DNA of 60,000 bases from Bolinopsis microptera (taxonomy: Eukaryota > Ctenophora > Tentaculata > Lobata > Bolinopsidae): assembly GCF_026151205.1 (NCBI RefSeq), contig NC_087082.1:10674901-10734900 (forward strand), written 5' to 3'. The position numbers and the translations under genes were made by a program. Of this stretch, positions 5,286 through 42,668 are shown in pieces. Each line of letters starts with the position of its first letter. Position 1 is the first letter of the stretch. Under the pieces are notes generated by a model. The model did not search any database. It was not told where the DNA came from and saw only the letters and a list, made by a program, of their open reading frames with translations.

Positions 5286-6950
<1,665 letters not shown>

Positions 6951-7365
6951 TCTGCCTGGATTAAGTTACTAGGATGAGCGCTAAATTTATTTTAATTTTG
7001 TAATCACTTGTTTTTTATGATTATCATAATTGTTATTGCTAACAATAAATACAAATATTGGAAACTTTCGCGGGGTTGATGATAAAGTGGCTGATTGGAC
7101 TGCTTGCCAACCCGAGTCAGAAGGTATTAAATTCGATCCCCACCATGTACCTTCAATATTAAAGTAAGGGGTGTAAGGGGTACAAAAGAAACTCGTGGTT
7201 AAAATCGGATATATAAACTGTATCAAGAGTAATACAGTAAGAAATCCGTACCAAAGAAAGAGTCCCGACAGTCTCCCTGACTCCCTCTAAATACTCCTAT
7301 TCACGTGACACGTATGCTGGTCACGTGATAAGATCTTAAACTAATATCAACTAAATATTATTATC
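6951..7365. other. Upstream region of copy B
   Basis: No gene is seen. Bases 7083-7150 have a weak tRNA-like look (GTGGCTGATTGGACTG, then ATTCGATCCCC) that could be an old SINE, but they lack good box A and box B matches. Confidence 0.25.
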
Positions 7366-13193: not shown

Positions 13194-13748
13194 TCAATGT
13201 TGATCTATCTCTAAGAATATTGAGTTTTTCTTGTCCGGGGAGAGGATCCTGTTGACCATAATCTGCCAATCCATGTAAGAAGTAGCAACTATCCTATCTT
13301 GTTCGGGAGCTGTCTTTTTGAACATCCTTCGAGCGTGGTAGACTCTCCAATTATCAGTGATTACAAACTCTCCCGAATTCAATCTTTTTGTGTAGTGCCT
13401 ACTAGGATCCTCCACTAGTCCTCTGTAGTACGTGTACGCTTCCCAAAACTTCTCTCTGGTTCCCGTGTCCGTGAAACGGGTGAACATGGCCGAATCCAGG
13501 TTGAACGGTTGATCAACCGTTTGCCAAATGTCCTTCCCGAGCATATTCACCACACAGTGGTGAGTTATCTGGAATATTCCTGTTCCTGGTGGCGTGTATC
13601 TGTAGGTCACTGGAACAGTTTTCAGCACTTCCAGAAGGTCGGGTCTTTTCTCTGACATCTCTTTGATCGCTGAGAATGAATCTACCCAGAAACTCTCGCC
13701 ACCCTCAACAGTGTTCTTCACACAGTGGAAAAACTGCACGTGCGGTGT
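13194..13748 (-). CDS. Dioxygenase copy C, exon 2
   Basis: 555 bases, with acceptor ATTTTCAG|ACACC. It encodes the C-terminal part of the catalytic domain with the distal His. Confidence 0.85.
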   Translation of the reverse strand, partial: TPHVQFFHCVKNTVEGGESFWVDSFSAIKEMSEKRPDLLEVLKTVPVTYRYTPPGTGIFQITHHCVVNMLGKDIWQTVDQPFNLDSAMFTRFTDTGTREKFWEAYTYYRGLVEDPSRHYTKRLNSGEFVITDNWRVYHARRMFKKTAPEQDRIVATSYMDWQIMVNRILSPDKKNSIFLEIDQH

Positions 13749-14667
13749 CTGAAAATATGATTGGAAAAGTAATCTTACAGACCTCACAAAATAGCCCGTT
13801 TCCTCTTACCACCGTTTTTATTTATCTCAGCCATGAAGTAGAAAAGTTCCACATTAATGGTATCTGACATAATAGTATACCAATAATAAGTTCGCCATTT
13901 ACCAATTATTAAATTCGAAAAGTTTGGGGTTATGCTATGACGATACACAATTCATGGGCTAGATTTATTACCTGATAAAAATAGGAGAGGTCAAGGTGAA
14001 GTGCAAGTTCATCGGCGCCATATCCTGAGTTGATAGGGTTTGGCTTGTACTTTACCAGATCCACCGTCTTAAACACAGTCCTCCGCAAAGGACTCATCTT
14101 TAGACCCTCCTCTACGACGTCCAACATGCCCTCTTCAGCCGGTATTCCTGTCAGAAACACTATACCATATCTCATGTAGTGGGTCAGGAACTCTCTGGTG
14201 TTATCAACGTCCTTTATTACCCAGGAGTAATCCCACAGCTTGGAAACTTCTGCGTCTGGCTCCGCCCAGAATTTCTGTTCTACGTTTTTCCTTCTTGTCA
14301 GTTCTTGCAACTTTTCCATACGAGAGTGTATGGGGTTAGGTCCGTAGTCTCCCCTCAAGGTCCGCGCAATTAGTCCTTCATGTCCATCACTCCACTTCAA
14401 TCCAAGATAATGCTCTGACATTCTACCAATCTCATCCACTTTGATTCCCGGGGACAAGCTCCCACTTAAAGGTAGATCCAGGCGTGAGTGGGCGTGTTTC
14501 CCAAAACAGGCTTCACATCGGCACATATGACGGGTCTCGATGTGCAGCAAGTCCCTCCCGTCCAGCTGGATTCCTTTTTCCGTATACTTCACAGCATCAC
14601 TGAGCAGTCTCGTCAACTGTGGTTTGAGTAAAGATGATGGTTTCAGCCGCGCTAGTCCGAATAACAT
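13194..14667 (-). CDS. Gamma-butyrobetaine dioxygenase family protein, copy C (two exons, intact)
   Basis: Exon 1 is 14667-13972 (232 codons) and exon 2 is 13748-13194 (184 codons plus stop), joined in phase 0 to give 416 residues. It carries the zinc pattern CRCEACF plus DGHEG, the iron ligands His224 and Asp226 (LHLDLS) and His370 (DNWRVYHAR). Exon 2 differs from that of copy D at only a handful of residues (for example Pro/Ser, Ile/Met, Arg/Met and Lys/Glu), much less than from copy B, so C and D are the youngest pair. The role is as in copy B: an iron and 2-oxoglutarate dependent hydroxylase of the carnitine-synthesis family. The exact substrate is not decided. Confidence 0.85.
13972..14667 (-). 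CDS. Dioxygenase copy C, exon 1
   Basis: 696 bases from ATG to the donor CAG|GTAATA. The intron to exon 2 is 223 bp. It matches the copy D intron apart from the 675-bp insertion there. Confidence 0.85.
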
Positions 14668-14723
14668 TTTTCCTGGATCTGGTTACAAGTGATTTAGTTT
14701 TTTAATTAGGAAAAAAATAGAAA

Positions 14724-18463: not shown

Positions 18464-18800
18464 TTAATTCGTCAGTTTTATCTGAGGTCTTTCTCGATCC
18501 GATAATGCACAATATAATACCTTCCGGGAATTATTTCCACTAAAAGTCTCGGACACTGAGAGCTGATAATTTGCACATTTTTCCCGCAAGTGAAGCCAAG
18601 GTATTATCAGCATAGACTCAGACTGGCTGGCGGCAAGTATTAAAATACAATAATACCTTGGCTGCTTCGGGCCGCTCGTGATAATTCCCGACAACTTGCT
18701 GGAGGGAATTTGCGGCCCGAAGCAGCCAAGGTATTATTGTATTATAATATTTTCCGGTTCCGAATTCGAAGGGGTGTAATCCGATACGTGCGCATGATAC
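18464..18800. repeat. Palindromic repeat family P, left of the Penelope element
   Basis: Carries GGTCTTTCTCGATCCGATAA, CTTCCGGGAATTAT, GAGAGCTGATAATTTG, CAGACTGGCTGGCGGCAAGT and then a perfect hairpin. The same blocks occur inverted at 23630-23770 and 23965-24090. Related copies lie at 12300-12760 and 24100-24560. Confidence 0.7.
18644..18743. repeat. Perfect 32-bp inverted repeat with 36-base loop
   Basis: Arms at 18644-18675 and 18712-18743 are exact reverse complements (AATACAATAATACCTTGGCT and on to GGGCCGC). The loop holds AATTCCCGACAACTTGCTGG. Degenerate versions are at 23755-23865 and 24088-24195. Confidence 0.9.
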
Positions 18801-18814
18801 AATATAGTGTCTAA

Positions 18815-20329
18815 AAAAAATTGTATCTCAAGACAAGTGGCAGATGTGACGATGCATTGGCTATTGTTTAAACAGATCAAAGGAAAGATGAAAAACTGGA
18901 GTTTGGTAGACCTCTGGAGGAGATTTATTGATGATGTACTTGGGGTGTGGTTAGGAACAGTCCGACAGTTCAATCTATTCGTGGAGCAACTGAACAAACT
19001 GGCAGAACCATTTGGAATCAGATTTGCTGACCAACAAATCGGTAAAACTGTTAATTTCCTTGACATCACTCTAACCTTGGATACTTACAACCAGATCCAA
19101 TATAGACTCTACAGAAAGGAGACAGATGCTAGGAATTACTTGCGAACGGATAGCTTTCATCCTCACCATGTATTCGAATCTGTGGCGTTTTCCCAGATGA
19201 TACGAATCATAGAAAGGAACTCGCAAGACTCAACCTGTGTAGAAGACTTAATGGAGCTGAAAGCAGATTTATCTAAAAGCGGACATAACAGCGTTAAGTT
19301 AGAGGAGATCGAGCCGAGAGCAGTTGTCAGAGTACTGGAGAACACCCACGGAGCCAACAGGTCTAAGGAGAGTGAGAACGCTGATAACTTAGTCTTTTCA
19401 GTACAACACTCTTCGGACAACATTCAGCTGAAGAAGTTGATTCACGAACTTGGACCGGACATCAGGAGGATATGTGGAGATATACGTGTGATATTTGCCA
19501 CACGAAAACATCCTTCAATCGGGAAACAGGGTAGTGAAGAATCGACAACTTGGAAATAAGGCTGAATGTCCCCAAAAAACATCACAGAAGTGCTCAGCCC
19601 CTGGATGCAAGACTTGCCCGGTATTGTTCGATCTTGACTCTAAGATCATGGTCAACGGCATGGAGCTTAATCTAGACGAATCCCTCACGTGCAAAGATAA
19701 GCACATTATTTACGTTGCACAATGCCAGCAGTGTAGGGCTATTGAGGGATCTGAGGACACTTACTTTGGGCAGACGTTGACTCCATTCCACATTAGGCTC
19801 AATGGGCACCGGAACAAGTTCAACATTGACGACCGTGCCCTCTACGAGCACTCAGCCTTATCAATGCATTGTTACGATGTACACAAGGACACTTTCAGTT
19901 TTGACTGTTTCAAATTCGGGATTGTGACAAAGACTAAACCTTCCCTATTAGATAGGGAAGAGGCTAGATTTTGTGCTAAGTTTAGAACTAATGTTTGGGG
20001 TTTAAATAGGATGGAAATTAAAAGATAGTTTTACCAATATCTGTAATTAATTAATTTTAACAATTTTGTGCCAATTTTGCGTAATTTTTCTTTATAAATT
20101 TTATCTACCACGCTATCAGTGAAACAATTTTATCGTATTCCAATTTCTGATCGACTTTCATGATATTCTCTAATCATGACCTTTTTATAAATTTTTGAAT
20201 CTCTTTGACTGAGTATTATGATTGATTTTATCTGACTAATTTATTTCTTTTTTGTAGGCTCTAGCGATGTAATAAACGAAGTTTCCAAGCCAAATTTGTG
20301 TGTTTCCCTTCGTGTCCAAAATCAATCAT
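18815..20329 (+). mobile_element. Penelope-like element, 5'-truncated upstream copy (pseudo-LTR)
   Basis: Starts within the reverse transcriptase, at the point equivalent to 22073 (AAATTGTATCTCAAGACAAG), and runs to the same 3' end (CGTGTCCAAAATCAATCAT) as the full copy, which begins at the next base. Partial-plus-full head-to-tail pairs are a known Penelope arrangement. AGTGTCTAA at 18806-18814 recurs at 23595-23603 right after the full copy, a likely target duplication of the whole pair. Confidence 0.8.
18818..20028 (+). pseudogene. Penelope-like RT and GIY-YIG fragment with frameshift
   Basis: The translation is the C-terminal 400 or so residues of the full copy, but an extra G (TCAATCGGGAAACAGG here, TCAATCGGAAACAGG at 22772) shifts the frame near 19521 and splits the reading into 18818-19559 and 19495-20028. 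It starts inside the RT domain just before the catalytic FIDD motif and includes the GIY-YIG domain. It cannot make a full enzyme. Confidence 0.85.
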
Positions 20330-23300
20330 TTTACGGAACAGACAAGACACCATTGACATGAGGGGGAACACACGCGGGATGCACGAAGAGATAACTACAG
20401 TTTAAATCTCTCTGAAAAGCTCGTCAAAAGAGAATTGCAACTAGGACTACTCAACCGAGTGAAGGAGGACAGCGTCCTCCTAAGCACTAAAATACTTCCC
20501 AGTATCCGCCCCAAGATCGGCAAATCATTCCATCACAAAGACTTAGACCAGAAGTCCCAGTCCATCTTACTCCAGGCTAGGGTTCAAATCTTGGAGCAAT
20601 GCGCTATTACAGAGGCTCAACGTGACACGAATAAATTACAACTTGGTCTTAGTAAAGCACTAGATAGATACGGAGATCGAGAGAGGATAGAAAAGCTTAT
20701 TGACGACCAGAATCGTAGGTTAAGGACAACGAACCTAAAGAGGCTGGACAAGAAAGTCAAATTCCATCTTGATAAGGCAAAACAAGAGCGCCAAAACTCT
20801 CATCCTCAACCCAACACTAACAGGATCAGCAAACGGAAACGGGATGCTGACCGAAGAGGAGCGGAAAGAAAGAAATACCGTGCATCAAAAGCCGCCAAAA
20901 AGGTTGAGTGGATGAAAAACCATGTGGAACGGAACATCAAGGGTAAATTGGTTATAAACCTTTCTTCACAAGAAGTACCGGACATCGCGTACATGTATTT
21001 AGCAAAAGGTCTCAACTTTGTTGAGAGTAGACCAGTAGCAAAAGAAGATTTACTCTTTGACGTTAAAGAGTTCCTGCGAAAGATGGAACGGAAAGCATAC
21101 TTCCACCAAACCCAAACAGATACAGCCGGTGATACTGAAGATATCCACAAGGATTTGCGACTACGGTCTAGAAGGCATCCGCAAGACTACAGTCATCCCC
21201 TGTTCGATGAAATCAAAACAAGATTGACGGGATTCGTCACAAACCCAAATCCTGACGAACCACATTCAAACCTTACTGATGCCGAACAGAGAGGAAAGGG
21301 CTGGGTCTTGAAATCAATAGAGGATCAAAGTATATTCGTCACGAGTGCGGACAAAGGTGGAGCTACGCTGCTTTTGGACTATAGGACCGTGATGGATACA
21401 GTTAAATCTGAACTGGAGAAGGAGACAAAATTTACAAAATTTGAGATAAGTGTAGGAGTGAAAATGGAGCAGACTCAATTGAAAGTGAAGGAAGCAGTCC
21501 TCAAACATCATCATCTGAACATCATCTCTGAGGAGGTAAAGAAGCGAATCACAGGTATAAATGACAAGGGGAACATGGTCCACGCACCTGAAATCCGCCC
21601 TGAAATACCATATGCGTACCCTTTATACAAGGTTCACAAACTATCTCAAGAACAAATCGAGGCAAAGACTATACCACCTGTCAGATTAGTTCACGCAACT
21701 AAAGGAGGGCCCCTTTATCGTTTAGAGAAGTTTGTGAGCCCGTACGTCACTCAGATCAGCAGAAAATACTGTGAGGAGGAGTTCATCTTGGATACCCCAG
21801 ACATTATTTCTCAGATCAACAGCTACAACAAGGAGACGCTAAAGGGCGCTTCTAGAAACTTGCAGCTCTTTACTCTAGACGTGGCAGCATTATATCCTAG
21901 CATCAGGCCTGAACTAGCGCTTACTGCTCTTGAGGATGCCCTCAATAGTGATACCAACTTCTCACAAGAGCTAAAAGCGGCTTTGCATGAGTTCACTGAC
22001 CTGATTTTCCGGGAGTCCTTTGTCACTTATCAGGGAGAGGGATACATTAACAAGGAGGGTATCCCGACGGGAAATTGTATCTCAAGACAAGTGGCAGATG
22101 TGACGATGCATTGGCTATTGTTTAAACAGATCAAAGGAAAGATGAAAAACTGGAGTTTGGTAGACCTCTGGAGGAGATTTATTGATGATGTACTTGGGGT
22201 GTGGTTAGGAACAGTCCGACAGTTCAATCTATTCGTGGAGCAACTGAACAAACTGGCAGAACCATTTGGAATCAGATTTGCTGACCAACAAATCGGTAAA
22301 ACTGTTAATTTCCTTGACATCACTCTAACCTTGGATACTTACAACCAGATCCAATATAGACTCTACAGAAAGGAGACAGATGCTAGGAATTACTTGCGAA
22401 CGGATAGCTTTCATCCTCACCATGTATTCGAATCTGTGGCGTTTTCCCAGATGATACGAATCATAGAAAGGAACTCGCAAGACTCAACCTGTGTAGAAGA
22501 CTTAATGGAGCTGAAAGCAGATTTATCTAAAAGCGGACATAACAGCGTTAAGTTAGAGGAGATCGAGCCGAGAGCAGTTGTCAGAGTACTGGAGAACACC
22601 CACGGAGCCAACAGGTCTAAGGAGAGTGAGAACGCTGATAACTTAGTCTTTTCAGTACAACACTCTTCGGACAACATTCAGCTGAAGAAGTTGATTCACG
22701 AACTTGGACCGGACATCAGGAGGATATGTGGAGATATACGTGTGATATTTGCCACACGAAAACATCCTTCAATCGGAAACAGGGTAGTGAAGAATCGACA
22801 ACTTGGAAATAAGGCTGAATGTCCCCAAAAAACATCACAGAAGTGCTCAGCCCCTGGATGCAAGACTTGCCCGGTATTGTTCGATCTTGACTCTAAGATC
22901 ATGGTCAACGGCATGGAGCTTAATCTAGACGAATCCCTCACGTGCAAAGATAAGCACATTATTTACGTTGCACAATGCCAGCAGTGTAGGGCTATTGAGG
23001 GATCTGAGGACACTTACTTTGGGCAGACGTTGACTCCATTCCACATTAGGCTCAATGGGCACCGGAACAAGTTCAACATTGACGACCGTGCCCTCTACGA
23101 GCACTCAGCCTTATCAATGCATTGTTACGATGTACACAAGGACACTTTCAGTTTTGACTGTTTCAAATTCGGGATTGTGAAAAAGACTAAACCTTCCCTA
23201 TTAGATAGGGAAGAGGCTAGATTTTGTGCAAAGTTTAGAACTAATGTTTGGGGTTTAAATAGGATGGAAATTAAAAGGTAGTTTTTTTGTGGTTTTTACC

Positions 23301-24995: not shown

Positions 24996-25550
24996 TCAAT
25001 GTTGATCTATCTCTAAGAATATTGAGTTTTCCTTGTCCGGGGAGAGGATCCTGTTGACCATAATCTGCCAATCCATGTAAGAAGTAGCAACTATCATATC
25101 TTGTTCGGGAGCTGTCTTTTTGAACATCCTTCGAGCGTGGTAGACTCTCCAATTATCAGTGATTACAAACTCTCCCGAATTCAATCTTTTTGTGTAGTGC
25201 CTACTAGGATCCTCCACTAGTCCTCTGTAGTACGTGTACGCTTCCCAAAACTTCTCTCTGGTTCCCGTGTCCGTGAAACGGGTAAACATGGCCGAATCCA
25301 GGTTGAACGGTTGATCAACCGTTTGCCAAATGTCCTTCCCGAGCATATTCACCACACAGTGGTGAGTCATCTGGAATATTCCTGTTCCTGGTGGCGTGTA
25401 TCTGTAGGTCACTGGAACAGTTTTCAGCACTTCCAGAAGGTCGGATCTTTTCTCTGACATCTCTTTGATCGCTGAGAATGAATCTACCCAGAAACTCTCG
25501 CCACCCTCAACAGTGTTCTTCACACAATGGAAAAACTGCACGTGCGGTGT
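24996..25550 (-). CDS. Dioxygenase copy D, exon 2
   Basis: 555 bases, open throughout, with acceptor ATTTTCAG|ACACC. The distal iron-binding His is kept (DNWRVYHARR). It is almost identical to copy C exon 2. Exon 1 is broken by a LINE, so this exon may be reached only by unusual splicing. Confidence 0.8.
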   Translation of the reverse strand, partial: TPHVQFFHCVKNTVEGGESFWVDSFSAIKEMSEKRSDLLEVLKTVPVTYRYTPPGTGIFQMTHHCVVNMLGKDIWQTVDQPFNLDSAMFTRFTDTGTREKFWEAYTYYRGLVEDPSRHYTKRLNSGEFVITDNWRVYHARRMFKKTAPEQDMIVATSYMDWQIMVNRILSPDKENSIFLEIDQH

Positions 25551-25658
25551 CTGAAAATATGATTGGAAAAGTAATCTTACAGATCTCACAAAATAGCCCG
25601 TTTCCTCTTACCGCCGTTTTTATTTATCTCAACCACGAAGCAGAAAAGTTCCACATTA

Positions 25659-26626: not shown

Positions 26627-27698
26627 TAAACAAAAGCTCTAAGAAACAGATAGTAAACAAAGTAAACATTTCTGTCCCCTAATCTTTCTCAAACAAAAGT
26701 CATGCAATTTGCATACTTCTCCATTTAACTCTATTCTGAGCGATTAAAGTTAAATTGTTTAAATCACATAAATTATTTAACGATAATTTTCGAACACTAA
26801 GGTCGTGTAGAATCAGTGAGAAAAGGTTTGACTGCGGTCTTCCACGCCGCCCTTGAAGCTGTAAAGTGTTAACAGCAAAAACAAGCGACGAATAGGCTGG
26901 ACCATCTGTAGGCCCACGCAGTACATGTCCGAGCATCCTCCACCGACTACGAGCCACTTTAGCTGACAATGGTTCGCTATTGCAGCGTTTATACAAGTTC
27001 TTGTTGGAAATGATGTGAGGGTATTTGTAATTCAAAATTGATCGCAGATGACGTCTGTGAGCAATATCTAGTTTTTCCAATACTGATTTAGGAGCAGCCC
27101 AGCAAGATGAATTGTACATTAAAACGGATACTACCAGAGCCTCATACAACAGAAGCCTCTTGCTCAGAGGGATCTTATGGTTCCAAGCTTTCTTGTATTT
27201 GTTAAACGCGGCATATCCCAGACATATCCTTCTAGAGATGTCCTCCTTACTACAAAGCATGGAGCCAAGCGTGATACTCTTTCTCCAGAGCTCGTTCCCT
27301 GCAATTGGCTTACCCTGATCGTCTATAGCTCCCTTTTCAGCTAAGTACACATGAGTGAAATCAGTTTTGTCTTCGTTAACGAAGAGATTCCAATCTTTAA
27401 GGACTTCTGTTGCAATAGGCAACAGCTCCCTCAAATTGTCCTCATCTTCATCATTGAAGTCGATATCATCAGCATACTCACTGTCAAGTGGAAGACCGAT
27501 ATCGGTGATAGGTGGGTTAGGCCTATTCATTGCAGTTTCAAGCCTGTTACGGAGGTCACGCAAGGCACCCGCTAAGACAAGTGTGAACAAACATCCAGAC
27601 AGACAGTCACCTTGGAATGCACCGAGAAAACTCTGGAATTCAGCAGACAGTGTACCGTTGATATTGACTTTGAGCTTGGTGTTGGAAAGCTCAACACC
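26627..27698 (-). mobile_element. 5'-truncated LINE fragment inserted in exon 1 of copy D
   Basis: The 10-bp duplication AGCCGGTATA flanks it at 26617-26626 and 27699-27708. The content is the second half of a non-LTR reverse transcriptase: FQGDCLSGCLFTL (motif B), SEYADDIDF (motif C), then RRHLRSIL and RWRMLGHVLR, typical of LINE RT C-termini. The stop is at 26700-26702 and a 73-base 3' UTR follows without a poly-A tail. The orientation equals that of the host gene. Confidence 0.85.
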
Positions 27699-28268
27699 AG
27701 CCGGTATACCTTTCAGAAACACTATACCGTATCTCATGTAGTGGGTCAGGAACTCTGTGGTGTTATCAACGTCCTTTATTACCCAGGAGTAGTCCCAAAG
27801 CTTGGAAACTTCCGCGTCTGGCTCCCCCCAGAATTTCTGTTCTGTGTTCTTCCTTCTCGTCAGATCTAGCAACTTTTCCATACGAGAGTGTATGGGGTTA
27901 GGTCCGTAGTCTCCCCTCATGGTCCGTGCAATTAGTCCCTCATGTCCATCACTCCACTTCAATCCAAGATAATGCTCTGACATTCTACCAATCTCCTCCA
28001 CTTTGATCCCCGGGAACAAGCTCCCACTTAAAGGTAGATCCAGGCACTGGTGGGCGTGTTTCCCAAAACAGGTTTCACATCGGCACATATGACGGGTCTC
28101 GATGTGCAGCAAGTCCCTCCCGTCCAGCTGGATTCCCTTTTCCGTAGACTTGACCGATTTACAGGGCCTACAAGAGTTAGTGCAAGTTTTGCAGTAGTTA
28201 CGGAACAGTCTTGCCAACGTGGGATAGTGCTGAGATTTCGGTTTCAGCCGTGTCAACCAGGATAACAT
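26700..28268 (-). CDS. Fused reading frame: dioxygenase N-terminus plus LINE reverse transcriptase
   Basis: A single 522-codon frame starts at the dioxygenase ATG, runs about 190 residues through its zinc domain and the beginning of the catalytic domain, crosses the left target duplication (GIPAG) and continues in frame into 330 or so residues of the LINE reverse transcriptase up to the LINE's own stop. There are no frameshifts or stops. The RT lacks its first motifs (including the first catalytic Asp) and the dioxygenase part lacks all three iron ligands, so neither enzyme should work. Expression is unknown. It is an insertion by-product unless shown otherwise. Confidence 0.7.
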   Translation of the reverse strand: MLSWLTRLKPKSQHYPTLARLFRNYCKTCTNSCRPCKSVKSTEKGIQLDGRDLLHIETRHMCRCETCFGKHAHQCLDLPLSGSLFPGIKVEEIGRMSEHYLGLKWSDGHEGLIARTMRGDYGPNPIHSRMEKLLDLTRRKNTEQKFWGEPDAEVSKLWDYSWVIKDVDNTTEFLTHYMRYGIVFLKGIPAGVELSNTKLKVNINGTLSAEFQSFLGAFQGDCLSGCLFTLVLAGALRDLRNRLETAMNRPNPPITDIGLPLDSEYADDIDFNDEDEDNLRELLPIATEVLKDWNLFVNEDKTDFTHVYLAEKGAIDDQGKPIAGNELWRKSITLGSMLCSKEDISRRICLGYAAFNKYKKAWNHKIPLSKRLLLYEALVVSVLMYNSSCWAAPKSVLEKLDIAHRRHLRSILNYKYPHIISNKNLYKRCNSEPLSAKVARSRWRMLGHVLRGPTDGPAYSSLVFAVNTLQLQGRRGRPQSNLFSLILHDLSVRKLSLNNLCDLNNLTLIAQNRVKWRSMQIA

Positions 28269-29104
28269 GTTTCCTAGATCGGGTATGGGAATGAGCTCAA
28301 ATTATGCATATGCCTCAAAATATGCATTTATCTGGTCTTAAAATCTTTTATGTGAATTAAGATGGTTCTCATTAGCTAAGAAGAAATTTTAATGACATAG
28401 CTAATTCTAAACGATTACTTAATAACCCGTCTTATGACATACTCAGTATAAGGAAAAATGAAATAAGATAGAATAAAATAAAACAAAATGAATAAACGGA
28501 AAATAAATCCAAGAAATTTAGTGATGCATTGCAACTCGTTTGGGAATTTTATTATGTAAGTTTTTTTTACGTATTACAGGTTATATATTATGAATATCAT
28601 CATTACCAAAATTGAAAACCAGATTCAAAAGAGTTAAATTCTAAATCATCCATATTTGATAATTCGTCAGTTTTGTTTGAGGTCTTTACTCTTTCTCGAT
28701 CCTCTAATGCACAATAAAAATAATTTACGCCGGAATTTTTTACGTTGACGTTGAGCCCGATTAGATGCACGTTTGAATTAAGTTACGCTTTATATTATTA
28801 TTTATTTCATTATTATTTAGTGCAGATGTTCAGGTAATTAAACCTACTAAACTAGTTAGAACTTGTATCCTGTATAGTTAATGACTTGGTTTTGGCTGAG
28901 CCTGCTCGAACGTGACTAAATTTATCTGTTCGTTGGGCGACAAATTTTAATATTCTGATCGAATTGACTTTAAAGCCAAAGAATAATACCGGTTTAGATA
29001 AGGTCTCATGTTTTCCTTAGTAAGATGCATCAAGCATGTAAGAAGAGTCTAAGATGATAATTATTAGAAATTTAGCTCCAAAATAACATTAAAAATTGTT
29101 TCAG
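28269..29104. repeat. 5' flank of copy D and start of the synthetase region
   Basis: 28330-28620 resembles 11850-12290 (AAGATGGTTCTCATTAGCTA, ACTCAGTAT, AATAAGATAG, GAAAACCAGATTC), and 28720-28860 resembles 12780-12950. No upstream exon of the tRNA synthetase is detectable here. Confidence 0.6.
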
Positions 29105-29270
29105 ATTTTGGAGTATTGCACAGGAACGAGTTATCCGGTGCACTGTCAGGACTGACGCGTGTGAGGCGCTTCCAGCAAGACGACGCGCACATCTTCTGTA
29201 CAACCGACCAGATTGTTGACGAGATCAGAGGATGTCTTGAATTCATGCAGGCTATATATTCAGTTCTAGG
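29105..29270 (+). CDS. TARS1: Threonyl-tRNA synthetase exon with motif 2
   Basis: Acceptor TTTCAG|AT and donor CTAGG|GTAAGG. Encodes [18 protein letters not shown] through [11 protein letters not shown], the class II motif 2 that contacts ATP and the tRNA end. Confidence 0.9.
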
Positions 29271-29826: not shown

Positions 29827-29957
29827 ATTCACGTACGAACTGGAGTTGTCTACCCGGCCGGACAAGTATCTGGGAGAGATAGAGGTTTGGGAGGATGCGG
29901 AGAGTAGACTGAAACAGGCTTTGGACGAGTTCGGGGCTCCTTGGAAACTTAACCCCG
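29827..29957 (+). CDS. TARS1: Threonyl-tRNA synthetase exon
   Basis: Acceptor TATCAG|ATT and donor CCCCG|GTTAGA. Encodes FTYELELSTRPDKYLGEIEV and the helix after it, ending KLNP, in phase with both neighbours. Confidence 0.88.
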
Positions 29958-30061: not shown

Positions 30062-30282
30062 ACAGTGGAGTTCCCACCTACGAGTGGTGGCTGAGAGGTG
30101 GCGCGCCTGAGAGGTGGCGCGGTGTATGCAAAGTATGATAATGTCAGCCGCGCCGTGGACGTGATAATTCAAACGTAATGAAAGCTAATGTCAGCCGCGC
30201 CGCAAGGCTGACATTATCATACTCTGCATACACCGCGCCACCTCTCAGGCGCGCCACCACTCGTAGGTGGGAACTCCACTGT
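30062..30282. mobile_element. Foldback MITE in synthetase intron
   Basis: The ends ACAGTGGAGTTCCCACC and GGTGGGAACTCCACTGT are inverted repeats that extend to about 78 bp per arm (through GTATGATAATGTCAGCC). TA flanks both sides (30060-30061 and 30283-30284). The left arm has an extra 11-bp duplication (TGAGAGGTGGC). The loop is about 50 bp. Tc1/mariner-type MITE by its TA target. Confidence 0.85.
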
Positions 30283-30403
30283 TATGGTGTAAAATTTAGG
30301 TAATTGTCATCTTGAGAATTTTGATATCCAATTTTCAACATAATATTATGATATTATGAAGCGTCGATGTGGCTGATTTCGGAAATAACTGTTCTCTTTT
30401 CAG

Positions 30404-30508
30404 CTGACGGTGCATTTTACGGCCCCAAGATTGACATTATTGTAAGCGACGCACTACGAAGGGCCCACCAGTGTGCTACCATCAGCTAGACTTCCAGCTC
30501 CCTCTAAG
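30404..30508 (+). pseudogene. TARS1: Threonyl-tRNA synthetase exon carrying a frameshift; seed of the minisatellite
   Basis: Acceptor TTTTCAG|CTGAC and donor CTAAG|GTAAGG. Encodes [12 protein letters not shown] and then [13 protein letters not shown]. The next codons should read CAG CTA GAC, but one T is missing (ACCATCAGC rather than ACCATTCAGC), so the frame hits TAG at 30487. The 45 or so bases before the donor, plus the donor, are the unit of the array that follows. Confidence 0.85.
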
Positions 30509-30869
30509 GTAAGGGCCCACCAGTGTGCTACCATTCAGCTAGACTTCCAGCTCCCTCTAAGGTAAGAGCCCACCAGTGTGCTACCATTCAGCTAGCCTTC
30601 CAGCTCACTCTAAGGTAAGGGCCCACCAGTGTGCTACCATTCAGTTTGACTTCCAGCTCCCTCTAAGGTAAGAGCCCACCAGTGTGCAGCCATTCAGCTA
30701 GCCTCCCAGCTCCCTCTAAGGTAAGAGCCCACCAGTGTGCTACCATTCAGCTAGACTTCCAGCTCCCTCTTAGGTAAGGGCCCACCAGTGTGTTACCATT
30801 CAGCTAGACTTCCAGATCCCTCTAAGGTAAGGGCACACCAGTGTGCTACCATTCAGTTTGACTTCCAGC
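30463..30869 (+). repeat. 53-bp exon-donor minisatellite, block 1 (about 8 units)
   Basis: Each unit is the exon end coding [16 protein letters not shown] followed by GTAAGAG or GTAAGGG, the splice donor. The first unit is the end of the exon itself. Variants include TGTGCAGCC for TGTGCTACC and CAGTTTGAC for CAGCTAGAC. Confidence 0.93.
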
Positions 30870-31989
30870 CAGAGGCACATATTAGGTGCGGTAAAAAAAT
30901 CGAAAATATGCGGTACCGCACCCGACTATCTTATCAAAAATAGGTCTGTTTATGTGTTACTGAGGGTGTAGTTCTTTACTAAGACCATGATTGAACCTAT
31001 ATCTCTATATTGAGATTCAGTTATCTGAGAACAGTGACTTGATCTGGTAGAGATCAGGAGACAGTTATTTGAAGACGCCTCTTGATAGAGTCGATCAGAT
31101 CCGATGCCTGATCGCAAATATGTGACACGCTTGTTGGCATTGATCGTCAGTACTTGTAAACCATTTGATCCAAGATCCATTAAGCCCACTATAAAGCCAA
31201 CGCTACAACGAATCGAGCTCATTACCCGATAAAAAGGGCTGCAGGTATGATCGAAGTTCGGTAACGACGAGGGTTCCATAACGGCCTGGGTCACGGTCCC
31301 GAAAGGGCCTGGGTAACGGTCCCGAAAGGGCCTGGGTCAGGGTCCCGAAAGGGCCTGGGTCACGTGGTAACTGGGTCACGTGGCCTAGGTAAGAGTTCCA
31401 AAAGGGCCTGGGTCACGGTCCCGAAAGGGCCTGGGTAACGGTCCCGAAAGGGCCTGGGTCAGGGTCCCGAAAGGGCCTGGGTCACGTGGTAACTGGGTCA
31501 CGTGGCCTAGGTATGAGTTCCAAAAGGGCCTGGGTCACGGTCCCGAAAGGGCCTGGGTCAGGGTCCCGAAAGGGCCTGGGTCACGTGGTAACTGGGTCAC
31601 GTGGCCTAGGCATGAGTTCCAGAAGGGCCTGGGTCACGGTCCCGAAAGGGCCTGGGTCACGTGGTAACTGGGTCACGTGGCCTAGGTATGAGTTCCAAAA
31701 GGGCCTGGGTCACGGTCCCGAAAGGGCCTGAGTCACGGTCCTAAAAGGGCCTGAGTCACGGTCCTAAAAGGGCCCGACTTTTAACATATTTTGGTTTTTA
31801 CACTCGAAACTCTTAACGCGAAAATTTCAAAGTTATGCGAAATTACGCGGAAAATGCTAGATTATGCGGAAATATGCAGAAAATTACAAAATGTGCGGGA
31901 GTGTGCGGAAAACAATAAATTATGCGGAAATGTGCGGAAAACGGTAAATTGTGCGATCCCGCACCCATCGCACCTAATATGTGCCTCTG
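30870..31989. mobile_element. hAT-like non-autonomous transposon inserted in the minisatellite
   Basis: Perfect terminal inverted repeats (CAGAGGCACATATTAGGTG at the left, CACCTAATATGTGCCTCTG at the right, each extending 2 bases further) with the 8-bp target duplication CTTCCAGC at 30862-30869 and 31990-31997. TGCGGAAA-type motifs cluster near both ends, like subterminal hAT transposase sites. There is no transposase frame in 1120 bp. The middle is a second minisatellite. Confidence 0.92.
31275..31775. repeat. Higher-order minisatellite inside the hAT-like element
   Basis: Basic unit AAAGGGCCTGGGTCACGGTCCCG (about 23 bp, given here with variants TAACGG and TCAGGG). It is grouped in larger units that also contain GTGGTAACTGGGTCACGTGG and CCTAGGTATGAGTTCC. 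About four larger units, the last ones shortened. Confidence 0.88.
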
Positions 31990-33548
31990 CTTCCAGCTCC
32001 CTCTAAGGTAAGAGCCCACCAGTGTGCAGCCATTCAGCTAGCCTCCACAGCTCCCTCTAAGGTAAGAGCCCACCAGTGTGCTACCATTCAGCTAGCCTTC
32101 CAGCTCCCTCTAAGGTAAGAGCCCACCAGTGTGCTACCATTCAGCTAGACTTCCAGCTCCCTCTAAGGTAAGAGCCCACCAGTGTGCTACCATTCAGCTA
32201 GACTTCCAGCTCCCTCTAAGGTAAGAGCCCACCAGTGTGCTACCATTCAGCTAGACTTCCAGCTCCCTCTAAGGTAAGAGCCCACCAGTGTGCTACCATT
32301 CAGCTAGCCTCCCAGCTCCCTCTAAGGTAAGAGCCCACCAGTGTGCTACCATTCAGCTAGACTTCCAGCTCCCTCTAAGGTAAGAGCCCACCAGTGTGCT
32401 ACCATTCAGCTAGACTTCCAGCTCCCTCTAAGGTAAGAGCCCACCAGTGTGCTACCATTCAGCTAGACTTCCAGCTCCCTCTAAGGTAAGAGCCCACCAG
32501 TGTGCTACCATTCAGCTAGACTTCCAGCTCCCTCTAAGGTAAGAGCCCACCAGTGTGCTACCATTCAGCTAGACTTCCAGCTCCCTCTAAGGTAAGAGCC
32601 CACCAGTGTGCTACCATTCAGCTAGACTTCCAGCTCCCTCTAAGGTAAGAGCCCACCAGTGTGCTACCATTCAGCTAGACTTCCAGCTCCCTCTAAGGTA
32701 AGAGCCCACCAGTGTGCTACCATTCAGCTAGACTTCCAGCTCCCTCTAAGGTAAGAGCCCACCAGTGTGCTACCATTCAGCTAGACTTCCAGCTCCCTCT
32801 AAGGTAAGAGCCCACCAGTGTGCTACCATTCAGCTAGCCTTCCAGCTCCCTCTAAGGTAAGAGCCCACCAGTGTGCTACCATTCAGCTAGACTTCCAGCT
32901 CCCTCTAAGGTAAGAGCCCACCAGTGTGCTACCATTCAGCTAGACTTCCAGCTCCCTCTAAGGTAAGAGCCCACCAGTGTGCTACCATTCAGCTAGACTT
33001 CCAGCTCCCTCTAAGGTAAGAGCCCACCAGTGTGCTACCATTCAGCTAGACTTCCAGCTCCCTCTAAGGTAAGAGCCCACCAGTGTGCTACCATTCAGCT
33101 AGACTTCCAGCTCCCTCTAAGGTAAGAGCCCACCAGTGTGCTACCATTCAGCTAGACTTCCAGCTCCCTCTAAGGTAAGAGCCCACCAGTGTGCTATTAT
33201 TCAGCTAGACTTCCAGCTCCCTCTAAGGTAAGAGCCCACCAGTGTGCTACCATTCAGCTAGACTTCCAGCTCCCTCTAAGGTAAGAGCCCACCAGTGTGC
33301 TATTATTCAGCTAGACTTCCAGCTCCCTCTAAGGTAAGAGCCCACCAGTGTGCTACCATTCAGCTAGACTTCCAGCTCCCTCTAAGGTAAGAGCCCACCA
33401 GTGTGCTACCATTCAGCTAGCCTCCAGCTCCCTCTAAGGTAAGAGCCCACCAGTGTGCTACCATTCAGCTAGACTTCCAGCTCCCTCTAAGATAAGAGCC
33501 CACCAGTGTGCTACCATTCAGCTAGACTTCCAGCTCCCTCTAAGGTAA
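31990..33548 (+). repeat. 53-bp exon-donor minisatellite, block 2 (about 29 units)
   Basis: A continuation of block 1 after the hAT-like element. Most units are identical. Variants include CTATTATTC, GCTAGCCTCC and one CTCTAAGATAAG, in which the donor GT is changed to AT. The block ends at 33548 where AAGGTAAATCATCG begins unique intron. Confidence 0.93.
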
Positions 33549-34106
33549 ATCATCGATTTTAACAGGGTTTATCTATATTTTCAGCATTTATGCAAAATAT
33601 GTTGAATACGAATGAATATTGAATAGCATAGTACTATGTTGTATGTATACATTGCACTACAATGTAAATTTACAGAAGGGGTATCCTAAGAAGATTATTG
33701 ATTTTTTGGCAGAATGTGGAAGCTCTACCCACTAGGCCAACTATACTAGGCCACCTAGCCACAAAAGCACTTTTACCAAATTTCTCGAGCCCCGCTGGTC
33801 TCCATATGCCGGGAATTGTTAGCTTCCCCGAAAGATTGTTAAACGAAGGTTTTACTCCACTTTTCTAATGGTTTATTTTGTCGTGATTTGCTTACTTTTT
33901 TATTACAGTCTAAATACATTGTCCCGGCAATATTAGCTATCTTTGATAAACATAATTAGTATCATTATAAATAGTATTAACGCTTTAACTTGTAAACTAT
34001 TATAGAACCCTGCCATACTAGATGAAGGGAAAATAACGTAAATAAAAAGCCAGTTATGAGTATGACCCAAGTGTTTTAAGTGCGAACACTTATTATATAA
34101 AGTAGT
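33549..34106. other. Intron sequence; possible old tRNA-like fragment
   Basis: Mostly AT-rich. On the minus strand near 33760-33705 there is TGGCCTAGTGGGTAGAGC, which resembles a box A and D-arm, but no matching box B follows. Too weak to call a SINE. Confidence 0.25.
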
Positions 34107-38690: not shown

Positions 38691-38702
38691 GTACTAACTC
38701 AG

Positions 38703-38850
38703 GTTTGAGCTGACGTATAACGCCCCTGACGGCACGGAGAAACGACCAGTTATTGTACACAGGGCTATACTGGGTTCTATTGAGAGGATGACCGGTATTC
38801 TGACCGAGCACTTTGCTGGAAAGTGGCCTTTCTGGCTCTCACCTAGACAG
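38703..38850 (+). CDS. TARS1: Threonyl-tRNA synthetase exon with motif 3
   Basis: Acceptor ACTCAG|GTTTGAG and donor AGACAG|GTTTGA. Encodes [15 protein letters not shown], then [12 protein letters not shown] (motif 3, ATP site) and [10 protein letters not shown]. Confidence 0.9.
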
Positions 38851-39178: not shown

Positions 39179-39282
39179 GTGATGGTGGTACCAGTAATGC
39201 CCATGTTTAACGACTATGCTATAGAACTACAGAAGGAACTGAAGCTTCAAGGAATCGAAATAGACACTGATCTCGACGATGG
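39179..39282 (+). CDS. TARS1: Threonyl-tRNA synthetase exon, start of anticodon-binding domain
   Basis: Acceptor CGACAG|GTGATGG and donor GATGG|GTCAGT. Encodes VMVVPVMPMFNDYAIELQKE through EIDTDLDDG. Confidence 0.88.
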
Positions 39283-39384
39283 GTCAGTTAAAAACGTGAA
39301 ATTAGATCAGTTTAAATAGTAATAAACTTCAAAGTTAATTGAAAACTTCAAAGCTATAATATAATATAGAATACTTGGCAAGAT

Positions 39385-39601
39385 AGATTGCTGCGATAGA
39401 TTGCTGCGATAGATTGCTGCGATAGATTGCTGCGATAGATTGCTGCGATAGATTGCTGCGATAGATTGCTGAGATAGATTGCTGAGATAGATTGCTGCGA
39501 TAGATTGCTGAGATAGATTGCTGAGATAGATTGCTGAGATAGATTGCTGCGATAGATTGCTGCGATAGATTGCTGCGATAGATTGCTGCGATAGATTGCT
39601 T
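39385..39601. repeat. 13-bp minisatellite GATAGATTGCTGC, about 17 copies
   Basis: Two variants, GATAGATTGCTGC and GATAGATTGCTGA, alternate in blocks. It lies in the intron between synthetase exons ending at 39282 and starting at 39854. Confidence 0.95.
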
Positions 39602-41263: not shown

Positions 41264-41382
41264 GTACAGTGAACGTACGTACTCGTGATAACGTAGTTCA
41301 CGGAGAGTTCAGTGTGGAGGATATCACTGAGAAACTGATACGATTACGGGATAGCAAGTCTAATGAGGACAAACTCGAGTAG
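41264..41382 (+). CDS. TARS1: Threonyl-tRNA synthetase last exon
   Basis: Acceptor GCACAG|GTACAG. Encodes TVNVRTRDNVVHGEFSVEDI and a Lys/Arg/Glu-rich end, with stop TAG at 41380-41382. Confidence 0.9.
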
Positions 41383-41390
41383 CGTTGTAA

Positions 41391-41570
41391 TGTGACGTCA
41401 TCAGCGGTTCTGTGACGTCATCAGCGGTTCTGTGACGTCATCAGCGGTTCTGTGACGTCATCAGCGGTTCTGTGACGTCATCAGTGATTCTGTGACGTAT
41501 TCAGTGATTCTGTGACGTCATCAGTGATTCTGTGACGTCTTCAGTGTATCTGTGACGTCGACGTCCAGAG
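41391..41570. promoter_or_regulatory. 20-bp tandem repeat, nine copies, each with a TGACGT core
   Basis: Unit TGTGACGTCATCAGCGGTTC. Six of the nine units carry the full palindrome TGACGTCA (CRE/ATF type) and the rest keep TGACGT. It starts 9 bases after the synthetase stop codon and ends about 260 bases before the selenoprotein F start, so it is either 3' UTR of one gene or promoter of the next. The regulatory role is inferred from the motif only. Confidence 0.7.
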
Positions 41571-42592: not shown

Positions 42593-42668
42593 GGCGTGAC
42601 GACCGAGTCGTGTGACGTCACCACCGAGTCGTGTGCCGTCACCACCGAGTCGTGTGACGTCGCGTGAG
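42593..42668. repeat. Short tandem repeat in selenoprotein F 3' UTR, three units
   Basis: Unit about 21-23 bp, CGTGTGACGTCACCACCGAG. It again contains TGACGTCA, as does the array upstream of the gene. Confidence 0.8.

Follow-up and report, generated by a model that had tools for sequence, protein, structure and literature searches.

A minisatellite of exon end and splice donor at a threonyl-tRNA synthetase exon of the ctenophore Bolinopsis microptera, with arrays of the same kind apparent at other exons of the genome

The stretch of DNA analysed here (the window, 60,000 nucleotides of contig NC_087082.1 of Bolinopsis microptera) carries exons of a threonyl-tRNA synthetase (ThrRS) gene. Positions without a contig name are those of the window, and contigs of the genome are written C1, C2 and so on. 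Searched by tblastn with the E. coli ThrRS, the gene is laid out in order from C11:10654191 to a stop codon ending at window position 41382, and a 47-kb intron precedes the exon at 29105. Several of the end exons match weakly when taken alone (E 0.1 to 5) and were accepted on order and frame. The exons from that point on are as follows.

29105 to 29270, plus strand: ThrRS exon (tblastn with E. coli ThrRS, E 1.5e-16, 57% identity; boundaries read)
29827 to 29957, plus strand: ThrRS exon (FTYELELSTRPDKYLGEIEVWEDAESRLKQALDEFGAPWKLNP; tblastn E 3.7e-5)
30404 to 30508, plus strand: ThrRS exon that seeds the array; encoded motif matches ThrRS; its ATCAGC, in the unit-1 part, is one T short
38703 to 38850, plus strand: next ThrRS exon after the array (tblastn; the acceptor AG ends at 38702)
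39179 to 39282, plus strand: ThrRS exon (VMVVPVMPMFNDYAIELQKEL..), read by eye without a tblastn match of its own, included in the joined-exon score
39854 to 39939, plus strand: ThrRS exon (tblastn weak alone, E 0.84, in order)
41264 to 41382, plus strand: last ThrRS exon, stop TAG (tblastn weak alone, E 5.1, in order)

When joined, with the broken tail left out and at least one exon yet to be identified, the exons reach 581 bits, the thrS cut-off being 384. All six matches of a genome family search fall at this locus, and the search revealed no second ThrRS gene; it recovered only six of the gene's own exons, so a very divergent second ThrRS could escape it. The earlier note on this DNA had suggested that the locus may no longer be under selection, which these results do not bear out: apart from the array exon, the exons identified are open, in order and conserved, and with no second ThrRS in sight relaxed selection is unlikely. 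That note also held that a repeat unit failing to match the exon of an intact synthetase gene elsewhere in the genome would count against its reading, a comparison that does not apply because this is the only ThrRS gene seen.

The 47-kb intron holds, in antisense, three tandem minus-strand genes resembling gamma-butyrobetaine dioxygenase (5286 to 6965, 13194 to 14682, and 24996 to 25607 with 26700 to 28301). A Pfam search with both pieces of the second copy gave TauD (4e-24) and, just below the cut-off, the N-terminal domain, and the frame of the first exon of the third copy runs into a reverse-transcriptase segment (RVT_1, 2.7e-7). An open frame of 974 amino acids (20357 to 23281, plus strand), accompanied by a partial second copy at 18798 to 20028, has no Pfam match at 0.001; we take it to be related to Penelope-type retroelements. 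Nested intronic genes have been reported to be common in a ctenophore (PMC8527503). Close to the ThrRS exons are a long fold-back inverted repeat at 30070 to 30290, whose end lies some 115 bases before the array exon, a 13-bp minisatellite (39382 to 39600) 100 bases after an exon, and a 20-bp minisatellite (41391 to 41559) just after the stop codon; another, of 21 bp (42595 to 42661), follows the apparent stop of the next gene. Domain searches of the genome also returned 111 homeodomain matches, some of which cluster locally with equal scores (five at C9:1549413-1563968, for instance, or four at C4:15747925-15955173), and no match to PF00105, the nuclear-receptor DNA-binding domain, in a search run without a positive control. 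To our knowledge this domain is lacking in ctenophores. A search for COX1 gave no match.

From 30459 to 33548, a 53-bp unit is repeated 37 times head to tail, as determined by TRF and by cutting the array into units at CACCAGTGTG; the count refers to one haplotype. Each unit consists of about 50 bp of ThrRS exon end and 2-4 bp of donor. Unit 1 is formed by the exon's own last 50 bases together with the first intron bases, and the other 36 units are intronic. The parts of the array are listed below, with a slash at the splice boundary.

30459 to 30869, plus strand: left, more diverged part of the array (TRF: 53 bp, 7.8 copies, 91% matches; unit 1 to the left part of unit 8)
30509 to 30514, plus strand: first donor, AAG/GTAAGG, exon to intron (read from the sequence)
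30870 to 31989, plus strand: putative non-autonomous hAT-like insert of 1,120 bp, splitting unit 8 (8-bp target duplication CTTCCAGC, terminal inverted repeat CAGAGGCACATATTAGGTGCG)
31990 to 33548, plus strand: right, nearly uniform part of the array (TRF: 53 bp, 29.4 copies, 98%; right part of unit 8 to unit 37)
33545 to 33550, plus strand: last donor, AAG/GTAAAT, with unique intron beyond (read from the sequence)

The donor is GTAAGA in 31 units and GTAAGG in four, so that GTAAGR is found in 35 of the 37; the exceptions are ATAAGA in unit 36 and GTAAAT in the last unit. Units end in ..CTTCCAGCTCCCTCTAAG/GTAAG, the AG/GT being preceded by a pyrimidine-rich stretch, and a unique intron runs from the last donor to an acceptor AG that ends at 38702. 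The array grew from this last donor, GTAAAT at 33545, and the duplication junctions read GTAAGG or GTAAGA. TRF, unit cutting and the match of the encoded motif to ThrRS thus agree with the earlier note, coordinates included, which had described about 37 copies of a 53-bp minisatellite made of exon end and donor, the exon itself as first unit, a strong donor in nearly every unit and an acceptor at 38702. Its point on the reading frame is right in principle, as a further unit, if included, would meet a stop (the donor reads TAA in the intact exon frame); it was silent on a frame-breaking deletion in unit 1, on the inserted element and on the recurrence of such arrays in the genome.

Units 2 to 7 differ from the consensus at one to four places each, unit 8 at four (by reading) and unit 9 at four with an additional gap, whereas 21 of the 28 units from 10 to 37 show no difference at all and none of them more than two mismatches. 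Near-identity of this degree excludes an origin of the array by chance. The pattern of differences on either side of the insert indicates that the array predates the insertion and that its far part was homogenised or expanded later. The insert has hAT-like ends, with perfect terminal inverted repeats of 21 bp and a target duplication of 8 bp, and contains a 23-bp internal minisatellite of its own. It is multi-copy: a search with a query starting at 30876, six bases inside the element, gave 90 aligned pieces, and the best near-full-length other copy among the 40 of 245 candidates scored is 92% identical. No transposase-sized frame is present in the insert, the largest stop-to-stop frames being 128 amino acids (minus strand) and 112 amino acids (in the internal repeat), and judged by its ends it would be a non-autonomous hAT-like element at most.

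Unit 1 is contiguous with the ThrRS exon of a gene that is otherwise intact in the exons found, and as assembled it is one base short: it measures 52 nt, with ACCATCAGC in place of ACCATTCAGC, one T missing. The exon consequently reads ...RAHQCATIS and then a TAG at 30487-30489. Lacking this T, the array exon is out of frame, and no full protein results by the plain route from the assembly. The earlier note had assigned an exon-end peptide to the unit, and the later units do encode it; the exon as assembled does not. Repair by splicing, through an in-register join to a later unit (with GT before the gap and AG at the matching place), was considered by eye and rejected, because the unit has its AG/GT at the end and both candidate joins within CCACCAGTGTGC leave the frame one base off. 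The Bolinopsis microptera assembly in print was made with wtdbg2, gap closing and Pilon polishing (PMC10232365). A consensus error or a private allele most likely accounts for the lesion; if the sequence is that published assembly, a leftover one-nucleotide error at the edge of the repeat is the simplest account, and a private null allele the next. We infer that the deletion is a sequencing or allelic defect and not the state of the working gene.

A genome search was made with a pattern of three donors at regular spacing, each unit being required to hold MAGGTRAG. We opened 16 arrays outside the window: six among the first 100 of 4,917 matches, three and five new ones from subsamples, and two among the first 100 of 306. 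In half of these (8/16) the first unit is the end of a coding exon with an open frame, and the other eight are without a proven coding exon.

C1:428573, C8:5353272, C3:17254892 and C11:2019725: exon-end arrays, open exon ending at the donor
C1:669300, C3:12053487, C5:7848311 and C3:2231514, minus strand: exon-end arrays, open exon ending at the donor
C1:934773, C1:1305879, C1:1468539, C1:1998053, C3:618407, C11:6077362 and C1:22440181: donor arrays without a proven coding exon
C2:990732: donor array with a possible exon, unproven

In all eight exon-end arrays the exon unit is in frame, unlike that of ThrRS, and in six a plain acceptor precedes the array exon. Pfam places one array exon, together with the exon preceding it, above the cut-off (PH, 5.7e-8) and another below it (sushi, E 0.002); in a third case it is the exon preceding the array exon that has a match, to thyroglobulin-1 (7.8e-7). 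Five of the eight array exons match no Pfam family and are recognised by an open frame ending at the donor; one of these we presume to be glutaminase-like, which Pfam did not confirm. The strong donors throughout these eight arrays are a circular result because the search required MAGGTRAG, whereas the ThrRS array was found independently. From their anatomy, arrays of the same kind appear to have arisen in this genome at no fewer than eight exons besides that of ThrRS.

Two of the arrays without a shown coding exon (C1:934700-936200 and C1:22440700-22441550, both minus strand) have a 31-32-bp unit that combines a donor, a CTAAC branch-like motif and AG; by motif content, this unit is a complete putative miniature intron. 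At C1:1997200-1998300, a 28-bp AAG/GTGAGT array immediately precedes the start codon of an open frame that runs antisense and that we take to be methyltransferase-like.

The share of coding exons (8/16) is by itself no proof of an excess, because the motif selects a fair share of real donors by chance. Across the genome the donor pattern gave 4,917 matches and the reversed motif 475, and subsamples gave 28 versus 9, 27 versus 0 and 306 versus 198; such match counts are a poor proxy for numbers of arrays, and array statistics rest on the pattern counts together with the individually opened arrays. Counted as arrays, there were six with donors in the first 2 Mb of C1 (one of the six a single-match array) and eight with the reversed motif on the whole of C1 and C2 (four of the eight single-match). 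Extrapolation to the genome gives 96 and 192 donor arrays when based on the subsamples and about 790 when based on the start of C1, against about 43 for the control. By our own estimate, real donors alone lift the ratio of donor to control to roughly 2. An excess of donor arrays is probable.

The intron part of each unit was read by eye from the left flank, the junction and the right end. It measures 2-4 nt at ThrRS, 6 in the sushi-like array, 2 at C1:669300, 3 at C3:12053487 (right end ambiguous) and 3-4 at C3:17254892; at C5 it is 3 (11 with microhomology), at C3:2231514 it is 4 (10) and at C8 it is 15 (21 with microhomology), and in the PH array, read without its right end, it is at least about 22. 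Microhomology at the breakpoint is present in five of the nine exon-end arrays (AGCCAGGG, GACATG, ATGAGA, AA and A, that is, 8, 6, 6, 2 and 1 nt) and absent in two, one being ambiguous and one without a right end read; the pattern fits a presumed duplication by slippage or end joining. In three of the eight arrays with the right end read, the donor of the last unit is weaker than the array donor (GTAAAT, GTTCGC, GTAATC), and the donor made at the junction is the better one (GTAAGR from GTAAAT, GTAAGA from GTTCGC, GTAAGC from GTAATC). This improvement counts as evidence for the ThrRS array only, because the search selected strong donors elsewhere.

Seven of the nine arrays allow a breakpoint only 2-6 nt into the intron. 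Under a uniform model, breakpoints within 6 nt have a P of 0.0002 (7/9), or 0.0009 without the ThrRS array (6/8), 0.005 with four non-coding donor arrays added as misses, and about 0.07 if microhomology is assigned to the far end (4/9). Deeper breakpoints would keep the donor for free and be easier to tolerate, yet the intron parts are short, and this shortness is the one hint of a mechanism in which the splice donors themselves direct the duplications. We regard such a mechanism as unlikely. If true, the donor would be the site where a break or a template end arises in the course of transcription or splicing, and exon-donor satellites would be a by-product of the splicing machinery and a genome-wide source of new intron sequence and spare donors.

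Arrays of comparable structure have been described in lancelet genes as "mirages", minisatellite-like tandem duplications of exon-intron boundaries at both the 5' and 3' sides, in hosts including Adh3, the globins BflGb6 and BflGb9, troponin C and PGBD5 (PMC3087553, PMC3902484). Their units are 10-160 bp long, AG/GT is kept in many but not all, and one copy is the authentic boundary; splicing was reported to be undisturbed, and length instability and concerted evolution were noted (PMC3087553, PMC3902484). The ThrRS array, too, is built of a tandemly repeated unit straddling an exon-intron boundary. It differs in that it is found in a ctenophore and has 37 units, in that splicing is predicted here and was reported in lancelets, and in that nine exons of one genome are involved, all on the donor side, as follows from a search directed at donors. 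Apparently, an exon-donor array of mirage type is new for the ctenophore phylum: the word minisatellite is absent from the main text of the ctenophore papers PMC11797021, PMC8527503, PMC11184263 and PMC10232365, ctenophores and minisatellites never having been queried jointly.

Intron gain by tandem duplication of AGGT-containing segments is a second known system (the Rogers model, ATP2A1, 24-bp arrays of fission yeast, and potato RdRp; PMC4974935), and here too tandem AG/GT copies can become intron with the protein unchanged (PMC4974935). In gain of the Rogers type the new intron is made of the copies, with GT from one and AG from another. The ThrRS array instead extends an existing intron at its 5' end and creates no new one, the ancestral donor and acceptor remaining, and we rejected this type of gain for it, as the intron beyond the last unit is unique sequence up to the acceptor at 38702. 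Recursive (ratchet) splice sites consist of a pyrimidine-rich stretch followed by AG/GTRAG. The likeness of the ThrRS unit to such sites would be a side effect of its pyrimidine-rich exon end.

Very probably, then, the array is a minisatellite of mirage type, in which an exon-intron border was duplicated in tandem, expanded, and was tolerated since the first donor was kept or rebuilt. The process would have begun with a short tandem duplication that started within the ThrRS exon and reached a few bases beyond the donor, the probable primer being a 2-nt match (AA) shared by exon and intron. GTAAGG, created at the junction, would be at least as good a donor as the old GTAAAT. With the first donor still closing the exon, the extra copies would be intronic and of low cost. 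As long as the first donor is kept or rebuilt, a duplication across an exon end should do no harm, since all that follows this donor belongs to the intron. Two copies may then have grown to 37 by unequal exchange or slippage, the hAT-like element would have inserted into unit 8, and homogenisation of the part beyond it would be more recent than that of the part before it. Selection is expected to keep the first donor while later units drift, as in units 2 to 9, and use of a later donor would be selected against because the extension meets a stop at once (the donor reads TAA in the intact frame). We infer that the first donor is the one used and that the array is neutral or nearly so.

It is highly improbable that the array is an assembly artefact, a repeat collapsed or over-expanded. 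Assemblies made with wtdbg2, gap closing and Pilon (PMC10232365) do err at arrays, and the single-base deletion in unit 1 is suspicious, but the differences between units depend on position, an element of 1,120 bp with its own target duplication sits inside the array, and eight other exons have the same anatomy with different units; the copy number may be off even in a real array. There is equally little chance that the ThrRS gene is dying, the unit-1 frameshift being real and the array a product of relaxed selection. Unit 1 as assembled does read ATIS and a stop, yet the remaining exons that were identified have open, well-conserved frames, the search revealed no second gene for an enzyme that is indispensable to an animal, and the eight other exon-end arrays all begin with an in-frame unit.

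Very unlikely, in our view, is a regulatory device in which the donor stack titrates U1, or in which the share of transcripts lost to nonsense-mediated decay tracks copy number, with ratchet splicing from unit to unit able to restore the junction. Such a device would accord with the 35 of 37 donors that are GTAAGR, with the immediate TAA met by an extension in the intact frame and, in the ratchet form, with unit ends reading ..CTTCCAGCTCCCTCTAAG/GTAAG; against it stand the drift of units 2 to 9, the same anatomy at other exons, and the report of lancelet mirages without disturbance of splicing (PMC3087553, PMC3902484).

The array and its counterparts are of interest for splicing and for the evolution of introns. 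Exon-end copies with their donors may serve as natural competition assays among identical 5' splice sites, and many independent arrays in one genome would offer a test of how the spliceosome chooses the first among equal donors. Exon-end arrays would also provide a route for intron growth and for possible new splice sites. With the mirage kind present in lancelets and at nine ctenophore exons, such arrays would be either ancient or repeatedly arising.
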